Shown: positions 1 through 37,451 of the stretch, piece after piece | Layout: each line of letters begins with the position of its first letter | Numbering within the stretch: position 1 is the stretch's first letter | NCBI GenBank assembly: GCA_913056175.1 | Contig: CAJXLM010000028.1 | Coordinates: forward strand, 1-37,451 | Length of the DNA: 37,451 bases | Source of the DNA: an uncultured Opitutia bacterium | GTDB lineage: Bacteria > Verrucomicrobiota > Verrucomicrobiia > Opitutales > Puniceicoccaceae | Reading direction: 5' to 3' | The notes under the pieces: generated by a model | Seen by the model: only the letters and a program-made list of their open reading frames with translations | Databases searched by the model: none | What the model was told of the DNA's origin: nothing | Position numbers and translations under genes: made by a program

Positions 1-870
1 TGGGAAAGAGGGGTTGCTGAGGCCGATAAAGCGGTCTGTCCCTCGCATTCGCTGCAGCGGGGGCTTTTTTGAGGCGGGAGGCGGTCTTGGAGAGGGGTGG
101 AGGTGTGTGGCGATTGCAGGGGTGGCGGGGGCGGTTTGGGAGGGGAGGAGATGGCGGATGGGGGTGGTGGTTTGGCCGGGCGATGGCGAGCCCCTAGCGC
201 CCGTCGGGCGGCTCACCGTAGCTGGTCCAGGGAAGGGAAATGTTGATGGGCGGTTGTAGCGGTCCGTCCCTCGTAATTGCCACAGTAGGGCCTTTGGAAG
301 GGGGAAGGTAGTCTTGGGGAGGAGTGTGGTCCGTTTGGAGGGAGGTGGGGGGGCGACTGCAGGGGTTCCGGGTGGTTGGGGGTTGGTTTGGCCGGGCGAT
401 GGGAACCCCCGGCGTCCTTCGGCCCGCTCACCGGAGCTGGTCGTGGGAAGGAGGAGGAGTGCTGGGCGGTTATGGCGGTCTGTCCCCCGTATTTGCTGCA
501 GTGGGGCCTTTGGAAGGGGGAAGGTGGTCTTGGGGAGGAGTGTGGTCCGTTTGGAGGGAGGTGGGGTGGGCGACTGCAGGGGTTCCGGGTGGTTGGGGGT
601 TGGTTTGGCCGGGCGATGGGAATCCCCCCCGGCGTGTTACGGCCGACTCACTGGAGCTGGTCCGGGGAAGGAGAAGGGGATCTGGGGCAGTCATAGCGGT
701 CTGTCCCCCGCATTTGCTGCAGTGGGCGCTTTGGAGGGGGGAAGGTGGTTTTGGGGAGGGGTGGTGGTGTGGCTGGTGGGGAAGAGGGTTATGATTATGG
801 CGGTTCGGGCGGTTCGGGAGGGGGGTTGGGGTGGTTTGGGGTGGTTTGGTCGGGCGATGGGGACGATTGG
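1..870. repeat. Degenerate tandem repeat, unit about 216-228 bp, at least four copies
   Basis: A recurring block begins with gcggtctgtccc (or a close variant) at 31, 259, 475 and 696. Each copy continues with a CTGCAG-like core, a cctttggaagg stretch, a G-rich ttggggagga stretch, and then tttggccgggcgatgg. Copies differ by substitutions and small indels. The + strand is rich in G runs. The open frames crossing it repeat the same peptide in shifting registers, as expected of repeats rather than genes. The first copy may begin before the window. The fourth copy fades near 870. Confidence 0.8.
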
Positions 871-28988: not shown

Positions 28989-29402
28989 ATGCCCGCCCTG
29001 CCCATCCTCCTCGGTCTGATCTTCCTCGGGGGCGGTCTCGGGGCCACCGCCCGTTTCGGGCTGAGCTACGCGGTGGGCCTCGCGGTGGGTCCGGCCCACC
29101 CTCACCTCGGCACACTGCTCTGCAACCTGCTCGGCTCCCTCGCGATCGGGGTGGTCACCGCCTGGCTGGCCGGACAGCCGGCGGGCTCCCAGGCGGTCCT
29201 CAAGGCCCTCCTGGTCACGGGGCTGCTCGGTGGGTTCACCACCTTCTCGAGCTTCAGCCTGGAGACGGTGAACCTCTACCTCACCGGCCAGGCCCGCGCC
29301 GCCGCCCTCAACGCCGCTGTCAGCCTCTTTCTCTGCCTGCTGGCCACGGGCGTCGGCCTGTGGGCCGGGCTGAAGTTTCGGGGGCCACTGCCGGGCGCCT
29401 GA
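28989..29402 (+). CDS. crcB: Fluoride channel CrcB/Fluc
   Basis: Small dual-topology fluoride exporter of the inner membrane. The 137-residue protein has four hydrophobic helices and the family marks GGGLGATARF (14-23), the helix-2 asparagine Asn46 in TLLCNLLGS, and the phenylalanine/serine region GGFTTFSSFS (81-90). It lies 13 bp after thrS, so it is probably cotranscribed; there is no space for a separate fluoride riboswitch in that junction. A strong inverted repeat follows the stop. Confidence 0.93.
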   Translation: MPALPILLGLIFLGGGLGATARFGLSYAVGLAVGPAHPHLGTLLCNLLGSLAIGVVTAWLAGQPAGSQAVLKALLVTGLLGGFTTFSSFSLETVNLYLTGQARAAALNAAVSLFLCLLATGVGLWAGLKFRGPLPGA

Positions 29403-29426
29403 GGGGGAGGGGCTGCGCGGGTTTCC

Positions 29427-29454
29427 CCGGCCGGCCGAACCGGTTCGCGGCCGG
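29427..29454. terminator. Bidirectional hairpin between convergent crcB and PfkB kinase genes
   Basis: Outer arms CCGGCCG (29427-29433) and CGGCCGG (29448-29454) enclose a perfect 12-bp palindrome CGAACCGGTTCG (29436-29447). It sits in the 74-bp convergent gap, where a shared terminator is expected. There is no T tract on either strand, so intrinsic termination is uncertain. Confidence 0.45.
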
Positions 29455-29476
29455 ACGGGCCGGACCCCGCCGGCGC

Positions 29477-30640
29477 TCAGTCCTCGAGGCGGTCGCCGAG
29501 GGTCCCCTCGCGCCAGCGGCGCAGCACGCGGGTCACGGCCTCGGGCTGCGGGAACTCCCCGGTGCGCACGAAGGTGCCGCTGGCGAGCACCCCGAGCAGG
29601 AGGAGAGCCTCCCCGTGCAGTCCGTGCAGGGCCCCCGCGAGGATCCCGGCCCCGAAATTGTCCCCGGCCCCGACGGAGCGGACGGGGTCGCGGGAGAGCG
29701 GCCCGGGCAGGCTGACCGTGCCGGCGGCCTCGCTGACGAGCGCGCCGTCGTTCGGGTGGATGACGAGGCGGTCGACCGCCGACCATGCCCGCAGGTCGTC
29801 GGCGAGCCGGGCCACCGCCGGACGCTCGCGTTCCCCGACCCCGCGGGCCCCCGCTACCTCCCCGAGTTGCCAGGCTTCCTTCAGGTTGAGGCTGAGGATC
29901 GCGGTACTCCGCGCGGCGATCGTCCGAAGGGTGTCCTGCAGGCCCCGCTTGTCCTCCTCCGCCCGGAAGGAGAACTCGGCGAGGTCCATGAAGAAGGGGA
30001 TCCGGTCGCCGGCCCGGTCGAGGGCCTCCAGCCGGTGTGCCAACTGCTCCCAGATCCGGCCGGCGTGGGGAAGCTTGCCCCAGTTGACCGCCGCAATGCA
30101 GTCGGTGGTGGCGAGGTCCTCGTCGAGGGTCCCCTCCCCCACCCGGGCGAGGAGGGCTTCCCAGGTGACCTCCGCGCAGTTGCGGAGGTCGCTGAGCATG
30201 ATCTTGCCGTCGCGGAATTGCAGGCAGTCGCTGTGGGCGGGATCGGCGAAGGAGTGGATCCGGTCGACCCAGCCGTCGAGGGCCTCCGCAAAGACGGGGA
30301 GGGGTTCCTGCCGGCCGAGGCCGCCGTAGTAGGTCAGGTGGGAGGAGGATCCCAGCAGGGCCCGCAGGCCGCAGGCGAGGAGGGGACCATTCCCTCCGAA
30401 GCGGTCACCCTCGTGGCGCACGGGAAAAGAGGTGGAGATTCCCGCAGCCTTCTCCACTTGCGGCCCGAACTCCGCCATGGAGGCGGGTTCCTCCATCTCG
30501 ATGAAAGTGTCGATGAAGCCGTCAAAGCCAACCAGGGCGCGGCGGGGCGGGCGGGAGGAATCGGCGAGGATCGACTCGACCTCGGCGAGGGCCTCCCCGA
30601 AGTCGGCCGGGGACTCGTGAATGCGCGGGGACTCGTTCAT
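29477..30640 (-). CDS. PfkB-family carbohydrate/nucleoside kinase
   Basis: Ribokinase-fold kinase of 387 residues. The C-terminal PfkB signature is SVGAGDNFGAGILAGAL, with catalytic Asp327 in GAGD. The N-terminal part has GFDGFIDTFIEM (about 38-49) and FGGNGPLLACGLRALLG, the latter standing where the family's GG sugar-binding motif lies. The substrate cannot be read from sequence; sugars, sugar phosphates and nucleosides are all possible. The ATG at 30640 gives a hydrophilic N-terminus; the longer upstream frame is Arg/Pro-rich. It follows pdxH on the same strand after 143 bp containing a hairpin. Confidence 0.82.
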   Translation of the reverse strand: MNESPRIHESPADFGEALAEVESILADSSRPPRRALVGFDGFIDTFIEMEEPASMAEFGPQVEKAAGISTSFPVRHEGDRFGGNGPLLACGLRALLGSSSHLTYYGGLGRQEPLPVFAEALDGWVDRIHSFADPAHSDCLQFRDGKIMLSDLRNCAEVTWEALLARVGEGTLDEDLATTDCIAAVNWGKLPHAGRIWEQLAHRLEALDRAGDRIPFFMDLAEFSFRAEEDKRGLQDTLRTIAARSTAILSLNLKEAWQLGEVAGARGVGERERPAVARLADDLRAWSAVDRLVIHPNDGALVSEAAGTVSLPGPLSRDPVRSVGAGDNFGAGILAGALHGLHGEALLLLGVLASGTFVRTGEFPQPEAVTRVLRRWREGTLGDRLED

Positions 30641-34409: not shown

Positions 34410-34710
34410 CATGGGCAGAACTTCCCCTTGCCTCCCCGATGGACTCCGCCGACGATCCTCCCGGTCGCAGGCGGGAAGCGCTCCCCTCCCCTTGGCATCG
34501 CTGGCAGCATGGTTCTGATCACCCTCCCTCTAGAAGCTCCCGCCGAGGTTTCTTTTTCTGTAAGTCACTCTCAAATAAGGATTTCCAACGCAATGCATGT
34601 CGGTCAACAGCAGCGGCGCCAACCGGGCGCACGGGGATGCGGTCGCGGAGAGGTCCCCTTCTGAGGGCAATCGCTCCGCTCTTTCCGCCACCGCTCCCAC
34701 CGCTCTGCCC

Positions 34711-34722
34711 ATTGTTAACAAT
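34711..34722. promoter_or_regulatory. 12-bp palindrome just upstream of dnaA
   Basis: ATTGTTAACAAT is a perfect inverted repeat ending 22 bp before the dnaA start, in the position of a promoter or operator. It is AT-rich within very GC-rich DNA. The binding protein is unknown. Confidence 0.4.
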
Positions 34723-34744
34723 TTCCGCCAATTCTGTTGCATCC

Positions 34745-36151
34745 ATGCCCTCTCCCACCCACGCCGAGACCCTCTGGGCCCAAGCTTGTGAGCGTTTCCG
34801 GACCCGCCTCAGCCCCGACATCTTCGAAATGTGGTTCAAACCGCTGCGGGCCGAGGAACGGGCGGATGGCGCGCTGCACCTGATCGCCCCGAACGACTTC
34901 GTGGCCATCTGGCTCCGCGACAACTACCGCGAGACCATCGAAGAGGAGGTCGCCGCCACCTTCGGTTCCGGGACTGTCGTGGCGATTGGGGTCGCCGAGA
35001 TTCCCACAGCCCGGAGGACGGGCCACGAGGAAGTCCGCACCGCCCCGAGCACGGTGGCGGATGGTCGCCGCCAGCCCGCCGTCGTCGAGCCGCCACGCCG
35101 CAAGAGCCCCGTCGCCGACCGGAGCGGGCTCAACCCCCGCAACACCTTTGCCAATTTCGTGGTGGGGGCCGGCAACCAACTGGCCCACGCCGCCGCCATC
35201 GCCGTGGCCAATGCTCCCGCGCGCGCCTACAATCCGCTCTTCCTCTACGGCGATACGGGGCTGGGGAAGACCCACTTGATGCACGCCATCGCCCACCAGG
35301 CCCTCGACGCCAACCCCGCGGCCCGCATCCTCTACATCTCGACCGAGAAGTTCACCAATAAGTTCATCACCGCGATCCAGGAGAACAAGTTGGTCGCCTT
35401 CCGCCGCCGCTTCCGCAAGGCCGATGTGCTCCTCATCGACGACATCCACTTCCTCTCCGGGCGGGAACGGATCCAGGAAGAGTTCTTCCACACCTTCAAC
35501 GAGCTTTTCGAAAACCAGAAACAGATTGTCCTGACGAGCGACCGGCCCGCCAGCGAGATTGCCCGCCTCGAGAATCGGCTGGTCTCCCGCTTCCAATGGG
35601 GGCTCGTCGCCGACATTCAGTCGCCGGACCTCGACACCCGGATGGCCATTCTCTCCAAGAAGGCACGCAGCCTCGAGGTGGAAATCCCCGAGGCGGTCCT
35701 CCGCTTCCTCGCGGAAAAGGTCTCCCGCAACGTCCGCCGCATGGAAGGCGCCCTCACCCGGGTCGCCGGCTACGCGGCTCTCCTCCACGACCCGCTCTCC
35801 GTCGAAGTCGCCGAGCGCCTCCTCTCCGACATCCTCCAGGAGGAGCTCTTCAACCAGGTGACCATCGACAAGATCCAGAAACGGACGGCCGAGTACTTCC
35901 ACCTCCGCGTGGCCGACCTCCTCAGCCGCCGCCGACCCGCCCGGATCGTGGTTCCCCGGCAGGTCGCCATGTACCTGTCGCGGCAGCTTACCGACAACTC
36001 CCTCGCCCGCATCGGCGACGCCTTCGGCGGCCGGGACCACGGCACGGTCATCAACGCGATCAAGGCGGTCGAGAACCTCCTCGAACAGGATCCGGCCACC
36101 CGCCGGAGCATTGACTATTTGACGAAGCAGCTCTCCGACGGCACTTCTTGA
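34745..36151 (+). CDS. dnaA: Chromosomal replication initiator protein DnaA
   Basis: ATP-dependent initiator that binds DnaA boxes and opens the origin. It has 468 residues: domain I (1-85, with WFKPL at 30-34), a short linker (86-130), an AAA+ domain with Walker A GDTGLGKTH (169-177), Walker B LLIDDIHFL (229-237), sensor TSDRP and arginine-containing SRFQWG (281-286), and domain IV with the DNA-binding signature GGRDHGTVINA (428-438). In E. coli the signature reads DHTTV, so one of the threonines is Gly here. The ATG at 34745 gives the standard N-terminus. No dnaN follows; a small acidic protein gene begins 4 bp later. Confidence 0.97.
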   Translation: MPSPTHAETLWAQACERFRTRLSPDIFEMWFKPLRAEERADGALHLIAPNDFVAIWLRDNYRETIEEEVAATFGSGTVVAIGVAEIPTARRTGHEEVRTAPSTVADGRRQPAVVEPPRRKSPVADRSGLNPRNTFANFVVGAGNQLAHAAAIAVANAPARAYNPLFLYGDTGLGKTHLMHAIAHQALDANPAARILYISTEKFTNKFITAIQENKLVAFRRRFRKADVLLIDDIHFLSGRERIQEEFFHTFNELFENQKQIVLTSDRPASEIARLENRLVSRFQWGLVADIQSPDLDTRMAILSKKARSLEVEIPEAVLRFLAEKVSRNVRRMEGALTRVAGYAALLHDPLSVEVAERLLSDILQEELFNQVTIDKIQKRTAEYFHLRVADLLSRRRPARIVVPRQVAMYLSRQLTDNSLARIGDAFGGRDHGTVINAIKAVENLLEQDPATRRSIDYLTKQLSDGTS

Positions 36152-36155
36152 AGCC

Positions 36156-36650
36156 ATGGATCTCTCCGACGAGCAGAAAGCACAAGTGAAGGATTGGGTG
36201 GCCGCGGGGGAGTCCCTCTCGGGGGTCCAGGAACGCCTCGATGAGGAGTTCGGGATCAAGATCACCTACATGGAGACCCGCTTCCTCGTCGAGGATCTCG
36301 AGGTCGACCTGCAGGACCAGGAAAGCGGGACCCACAAGGACGAGGCCGCCGAAGCCACCTCCGATGCGGTCGGGGCGGCCTCCGAGGGCGCGGTCGATCT
36401 CGAGGACGCTGGTTTCGATGCCGCCGCCGGGGCCGGGCAGGTCCGGGTCGAGGTCGACGACCTCACGCGGCCGGGCTCCGTGGTCAGCGGGAGCGTCACC
36501 TTCTCCGACGGGGAACGCTCCCTCTGGATGCTCGACCAGATGGGCCGCCTCCAGCTCCAGCCCTCCTCCGAAAGCTACCAGCCAAGCGAGGAGGATGTGC
36601 AGGCCTTCCAGGCCGCCCTCGAAAACGAGCTGCGGCGCAAGGGCTTCTGA
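36156..36650 (+). CDS. Small acidic protein of unknown function downstream of dnaA
   Basis: A 164-residue soluble protein without signal or membrane segment. Residues 4-50 look like a helical, HTH-sized module (QVKDWVAAGESLSGVQERL then YMETRFLVEDLEV). A low-complexity Ala/Asp/Glu linker follows (about 55-95). The C-terminal domain (about 96-164) contains VSGSVTFSDGERSLWMLDQMGRL and a terminal helix. I recall similar proteins as conserved hypotheticals of Verrucomicrobiota, but have no function for it. It begins 4 bp after dnaA, so it is very probably cotranscribed with the initiator gene. Confidence 0.8.
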   Translation: MDLSDEQKAQVKDWVAAGESLSGVQERLDEEFGIKITYMETRFLVEDLEVDLQDQESGTHKDEAAEATSDAVGAASEGAVDLEDAGFDAAAGAGQVRVEVDDLTRPGSVVSGSVTFSDGERSLWMLDQMGRLQLQPSSESYQPSEEDVQAFQAALENELRRKGF

Positions 36651-36739: not shown

Positions 36740-36813
36740 GCGGGTATAGTTTAATGGGAAAACCCCAGCCTTCCAAGCTGGTGATGTCGGTTCGATTCCG
36801 TCTACCCGCACCA
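36740..36813 (+). tRNA. tRNA-Gly, anticodon UCC
   Basis: A 74-nt cloverleaf with encoded CCA. The acceptor GCGGGTA pairs with TACCCGC and the discriminator is A. The D stem is GTTT/AAAC, the anticodon stem CCAGC/GCTGG has loop CTTCCAA (anticodon TCC, reads GGA), and the T loop is TTCGATT. The T stem GTCGG/CCGTC contains one U-U mismatch at the second pair. The 3' part, from the variable loop on, is repeated in the downstream tandem array, but only this copy has a 5' half. Confidence 0.95.
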
Positions 36814-37451
36814 TAAGGAGAACCCCGGTCCCTGGGAGAGCACAGCCACCGATACCCCGGTGAGCTCCCTCCGATCGCCACCCCGCCGCCGCTCCCAGCC
36901 GGCCACCCTCCCTCCACTCGCCCCGTCCGGGCAACCCGCGCCCCCTCCTGCCCACGGCACCCGCGGAATCGCTGGCCCCCGAACCGGACGGCACCACAGC
37001 TCCCCCGGAAAGCGACACCACCAGCGCACCTCGACAACCGGGCTCACGAGGAAAATCGCGGAACGCGATCGCCGAAAAGTCCACAGCCTCCCCGCGACCA
37101 TCCAAGATGTCGGTTCGATTCCGTCGACCCGCACCATAAGGAGACCCCCGGTCCTCGGTAGAGGGCAGCCTCCGATCACCCGGTGAGCTCCCTCCGTCCG
37201 CCCCTCCTCCGCCGTCCCAGCCAGTCACCCTCCCTCCACTCGCCCCGTCCCGGCAACCCACGCCCCCCTGCCCAGGGCACCCACGGAATCGCCGGTCCCC
37301 GAACCGGACGGCACCACAGCTCCCCCGGAAAGCGACACCACCAGCGCACCCCGACAACCGATCTCACGAGGAAGATCGCGGAACGCGATCGCCGAAAAGT
37401 CCACAGCCTCCCCGCGACCATCCAAGATGTCGGTTCGATTCCGTCGACCCG
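36783..37451 (+). repeat. Tandem array of about 320-bp units carrying the tRNA-Gly 3' end
   Basis: Units start with gatgtcggttcg at 36783 (inside the tRNA), 37106 and 37426, giving periods of 323 and 320 bp; the third copy is cut by the window edge. Each unit carries the tRNA T arm, the acceptor 3' strand and CCA, followed by taaggaga and about 280 bp of C-rich DNA. In copies two and three the acceptor strand reads GACCCGC, and only a short tccaa remnant stands where the anticodon arm was, so they are not tRNAs. Each unit also contains a stem ATCGCG-GAA-CGCGAT (37055-37069 and 37375-37389). No protein gene is supported here. Confidence 0.85.

Follow-up and report, generated by a model that had tools for sequence, protein, structure and literature searches.

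A complete tRNA-Gly gene with anticodon TCC and an encoded CCA (36740..36813, + strand; found by ARAGORN and by Rfam RF00005 at 70.2 bits) stands near the right-hand end of the DNA analysed here, and its own 3′ end recurs in the sequence that follows it. The locus raises the question of how the end of a tRNA gene came to be repeated. The window is an entire contig of 37,451 bp (C28), part of a bin of 2.61 Mb in 84 contigs with a completeness of 96.5%; the nearest relatives of its DnaA are from metagenome-assembled Opitutales (Verrucomicrobiota), at no more than 57% identity. Ahead of the tRNA lie dnaA (34439..36151, +; Pfam Bac_DnaA, 1.4e-70), which served as the upstream syntenic anchor, and the gene of a 164-aa protein (36156..36650, +) with tblastn identities of 58–59% in same-family genomes. 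In our assessment, the repeats probably arose when a segment was duplicated in tandem, one of its breakpoints lying within the tRNA gene, and unequal recombination and gene conversion followed.

The array consists of units that begin with the tRNA end. The 3′-terminal 31 nt of the tRNA, comprising the T arm, the 3′ acceptor strand and CCA (36783..36813, +), form the head of unit 1 (323 bp; 36783..37105, +), which is to say that this head is part of tRNA-Gly(TCC) itself. Unit 2 (320 bp; 37106..37425, +), delimited like the first by repeat search, TRF and alignment, follows without a gap at 91% identity and opens with a second copy of the 31 nt (37106..37136, +) that has one mismatch. A third head is truncated by the contig end after 26 nt (37426..37451, +). 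Both copied heads share a single T to G change (GTCTACCC to GTCGACCC). Start-to-start spacings are 323 and then 320 bp, and TRF reports a 320-bp period with 2.1 copies and a score of 1128. Given that only about 7e-11 matches to the 31-mer with at most one mismatch would be expected (first-order Markov model, 2 × 2.6 Mb), chance recurrence is excluded. A sequence-only reading of this locus had described at least three units, headed by the tRNA end and aligned end to end; the recurrence of the tail, the spacings and the contiguity all hold, but the contig carries only two complete units and the 26-nt head.

The same reading had drawn attention to a conserved stem with a GAA loop. This stem, ATCGCG-GAA-CGCGAT, is indeed found in both units (37055..37069 and 37375..37389, +), but the units fold no better than shuffles (z −1.5 and +0.6), and when the terminal 75 nt of unit 2 are folded, the minimum-energy structure does not retain the stem. 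Searched with all Rfam families to E=10, the array returned only the tRNA and a weak antisense match; with both Rfam and folding negative, we rejected the unit as a structured RNA. The 5′ half of tRNA-Gly is not discernible ahead of the copied heads, and homology of the unit to that half is not significant (the anchored score was matched by 767 of 5000 shuffles, the local score by 115 of 5000). No second copy of the unit exists elsewhere in the bin, a 34-nt match at 85% on another contig (C51) being taken as chance, and a comparison with the window's left-end array showed no relation. Nor were relatives of the unit found in the plasmids and phages searched or, by pattern search, in IMG/VR, and among the matches listed from 373 genomes of the order there was no second close pair of the Gly tail.

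The way in which the contig ends bears on whether the array is real. Counted from the last position at which the two unit ends differ, it runs on for exactly 77 nt, and the 77 nt that span the first junction (37055..37131, +) are identical to its final 77 nt (37375..37451, +). Many other contig starts in the same assembly are exact 77-mers found elsewhere, several of them within their own tandem arrays. Together, these observations indicate that the contig was broken off where an assembler using k=77 came upon the repeat a second time. The break is an assembly-graph break at a repeat, and the array is real and not an assembly error; the third head is supported as well, since contiguous sequence leads into it from bases specific to unit 2. 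At the start of another contig (C56:1-102), a repeated tRNA end has perhaps broken the assembly at k=77 once more: it begins 28 nt after tRNA-Lys(CTT), and its first 77 nt are the last 49 nt of that tRNA plus trailer.

Related genomes show the locus in another state. The order of dnaA, 164-aa gene and tRNA-Gly is conserved in three same-family genomes, in none of which a copy of the tRNA end or a long-period array was found 3′ of tRNA-Gly; the comparison that the sequence-only reading had suggested thus found the array absent from them. Among 26 distinct tRNA genes in relatives, including tRNA-Asn(GTT), none had a downstream tail copy (up to 3 mismatches in 18 nt) or a long-period array. Gene order and content downstream of tRNA-Gly differ between two relatives (G001 and G002), so that the far side of the array could not be located through the relatives' downstream genes.

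Within the host genome, the Gly(TCC) locus does not stand alone. All 41 tRNA genes found by Rfam were checked for downstream copies of their last 18 nt, tRNA-Lys(CTT) over the 28 nt available to it, and three stood out: Gly(TCC), Asn(GTT) and Gly(CCC). Set against none of 26 in the relatives, three of 41 is not significant alone, and the weight of the argument is on independent recurrence, not on this count. At tRNA-Asn(GTT) (C34:29146-30196), the 18-nt check found end copies 335 and 689 nt downstream, which belong to an array of 2.8 units of 353–354 bp (29190-30196). Each unit carries the T arm and 3′ end of tRNA-Asn (CGCTGGTTCGATCCC...), with the CCA decayed to CGA in one tail copy, and the array, which is complete, terminates within a unit and has no flanking tRNA end. 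A 10-nt colinear D-arm match (AGCGGTAGAG) precedes each copied T arm. It suggests that the Asn array may once have included more of the tRNA, with uneven support: equally high scores are reached at 5% and 0.2% of control positions, and at 10% and 4% of those within the array. A third array, behind tRNA-Cys (C14:57154-57858; 237 bp × 3.0), begins 10 nt past CCA, and its unit lacks a tRNA end.

The internal structure of the Asn and Cys arrays suggests units that have exchanged sequence. Positions where one of the three units differs from the other two, which agree, fall into clusters in the Asn array (runs test, 34 runs, P=0.0004) and weakly so in the Cys array (P=0.02); recombination or gene conversion among the units would produce such a pattern. 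Strand composition is opposite in the two tRNA-headed arrays (on the tRNA strand, the Gly body is 47% C and the Asn body 46% G) and balanced in the Cys array. Surveying stretches of the genome that came to 529 kb, we found eight long-period arrays, mostly near contig starts, as compared with none in 200 kb of the same-family genome G002; contig ends are over-represented in this sample, which inflates the rate. A short sequence was also met at several of these places. GGGGACAGACCGC, with at most one mismatch, occurs 46 times in the sampled stretches (overlapping loci double-counted), and 28 of the 46 occurrences are in or near tandem arrays with otherwise different bodies, namely at the left end of the window (1-864) and on C42, C41, C10, C14 and C22; it is possibly a REP-like element. 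CCCACAACCACGGG, again with at most one mismatch, lies shortly 3′ of tRNA-Lys(TTT), tRNA-Lys(CTT) and tRNA-Ser(TGA).

In a genome so rich in long-period arrays, the Gly array is one tandem duplication among many, and in two of them an endpoint falls within a tRNA gene. The existence of a second tRNA-headed array points to a recurring by-product of local duplication, neither a one-off nor an assembly error. In the mechanism that we favor, a duplication downstream of tRNA-Gly(TCC) would have taken in the DNA from where the T arm begins to a point some 290 nt further on, so that each new copy would comprise the tRNA 3′ end and an intergenic segment. As the initial event, slippage is plausible, and so is the breakage of a fork, at a gene that is transcribed so heavily. 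Once two copies were present, unequal homologous recombination would alter their number and gene conversion would keep the Gly units similar; the first, complete tRNA would be the sole gene, and the additional heads its passengers. For the Gly array, we infer the first duplication event, the recombination within the array and its lack of function. Of the three options offered by the sequence-only reading, stepwise duplication with the tRNA as its anchor fits best, although as an ordinary tandem duplication and not by way of an attachment site.

Two observations could point beyond plain duplication. First, tails are somewhat less diverged than bodies: 1 of 31 positions against 26 of 289 in the Gly array, 3 of 30 against 43 of 247 and 40 of 245 in the Asn array, and 0 of 19 against 8–9 of 159 in the comparable repeats of E. 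coli. This could be a hint of selection; the numbers are small, and wherever unit 1 is compared, one partner is the functional tRNA. Second, the seeding of arrays by two of 41 tRNA genes might reflect a preference for such genes as sites, something for which plain duplication does not account. It is conceivable, if unlikely, that tRNA genes in this lineage are preferred and recurrent starts of arrays that carry their 3′ halves, owing to an active cause such as fork breakage at these genes or an enzyme recognising the T arm; the Asn array would then perhaps carry D-arm remnants as well. If true, this would be a bacterial counterpart of tRNA-derived repeats.

The closest known parallel is the tyrT/tyrV locus of E. 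coli (RtT, rttR/tpr), where tandem units in the same orientation likewise follow directly after a tRNA at regular spacing, each beginning with the tRNA 3′ end including CCA, as in both the Gly and the Asn array. Downstream of tyrV in E. coli K-12, copies of the last 19 nt of tRNA-Tyr follow one another at spacings of 178, 178 and 178 bp. RefSeq annotates one to four RtT copies among E. coli strains, and the spans that matched (681, 503 and 323 bp) are one unit apart. The differences are these: the tRNAs are Gly and Asn here and not those of a tRNA-Tyr operon, units measure 320–354 bp as opposed to 178 bp, the tRNA segment is 31 nt as opposed to 19 nt, and two or more tRNA genes are affected within the same genome. 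Tandem copy-number change over a few hundred bp at tRNA loci is also known from Salmonella Paratyphi A, whose strains differ by a 175-bp VNTR in rtT RNA and in which a tRNA-Gly is a VNTR of 220 bp; the published table gives these without unit structure (PMC2658671). The copy-number differences among strains at the E. coli and Salmonella rtT loci speak for the duplication reading.

The E. coli tyrT repeats are annotated as a small RNA, RttR, and the shared anatomy invites the idea that the Gly array might be a functional transcript of the same kind, in which units co-transcribed with the tRNA would be freed as small RNAs and the tails would act as processing or decoy sites. The slightly lower divergence of the tails would fit such a role. 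The sequence family is nevertheless another one, as neither the RtT covariance model nor any other RNA family apart from the tRNA matched the Gly array to E=10, and the units show no excess folding, the Asn array has lost CCA in one copy and the two arrays are opposite in strand composition. The sequence-only reading had considered repeated T arms as processing signals; that idea is weakened by the CCA loss, by the unremarkable folding and by tails that lack the 5′ acceptor strand. On balance, we think a functional transcript quite unlikely.

The tRNA 3′ ends are classic att sites, and integrative elements leave behind a second copy of the tRNA 3′ end beyond the intact gene. Small elements or satellites might accordingly have inserted in succession at the tRNA 3′ end, with each junction retaining a copy of att. 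Such an event may have occurred elsewhere in this genome: at tRNA-Gly(CCC) (C21:16655-18070), the 3′ end and the terminator hairpin are copied 1271 nt downstream, where the 18-nt check found one exact copy of the tRNA end (at 1253 nt by its count), and the copies flank a stretch with a ribbon-helix-helix/ParG-like gene. This arrangement resembles two att sites on either side of an integrated element that has decayed; an empty site could not be demonstrated through gltB/sigma-factor synteny, as the sigma factor is located elsewhere in relatives. The difference in gene content 3′ of tRNA-Gly between G001 and G002 would likewise agree with integration there. At Gly(TCC), however, the copies are tandem and about 290 nt apart, too short for cargo, and the duplicated block runs on beyond the tRNA; the integrase family PF00589 has no match on the contig as assembled (six elsewhere in the genome); and the complete Asn array ends without a terminal copy of the tail. 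The sequence-only reading was therefore right that the locus resembles neither an IS nor an att pair around cargo, as the absence of another genomic copy also indicates. Its option of decayed satellites finds no footing, with neither relatives in the collections searched nor a copy elsewhere in the genome. We regard integration remnants at this locus as very unlikely.

A link has been drawn between the tyrT repeats and both Rho-dependent termination and a small protein, and the Gly units could in principle make the stretch behind the tRNA a zone of Rho-dependent termination. Every 78-nt window of the Gly array contains more C than G, with a mean surplus of 18 that only 1.7% of + strand windows reach, there is no intrinsic terminator in the array, and Rho is encoded in the genome; with this C-rich, G-poor sense strand, Rho-dependent termination at the Gly array is possible. 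As an account of the units it is highly improbable, because the tRNA strand is rich in G in the Asn array and balanced in the Cys array, so that termination would not be a common role of such arrays, and C>G bubbles predict Rho termination in vivo only to a limited degree (PMC9160355).

Local tandem duplication thus remains the reading that we prefer. We found no literature on tRNA-headed arrays outside enterics, and to our knowledge the enteric tyrT repeats have hitherto been an oddity of a single locus. Here, the same anatomy occurs at two other tRNA genes in another phylum, with unrelated bodies and opposite strand composition, a recurrence which suggests local duplication as a repeated source of tRNA-headed arrays. 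Short-read assemblies are prone to break at them. Both tRNA genes as duplication hot spots and the RtT small RNA as a secondary use of an array are now testable.
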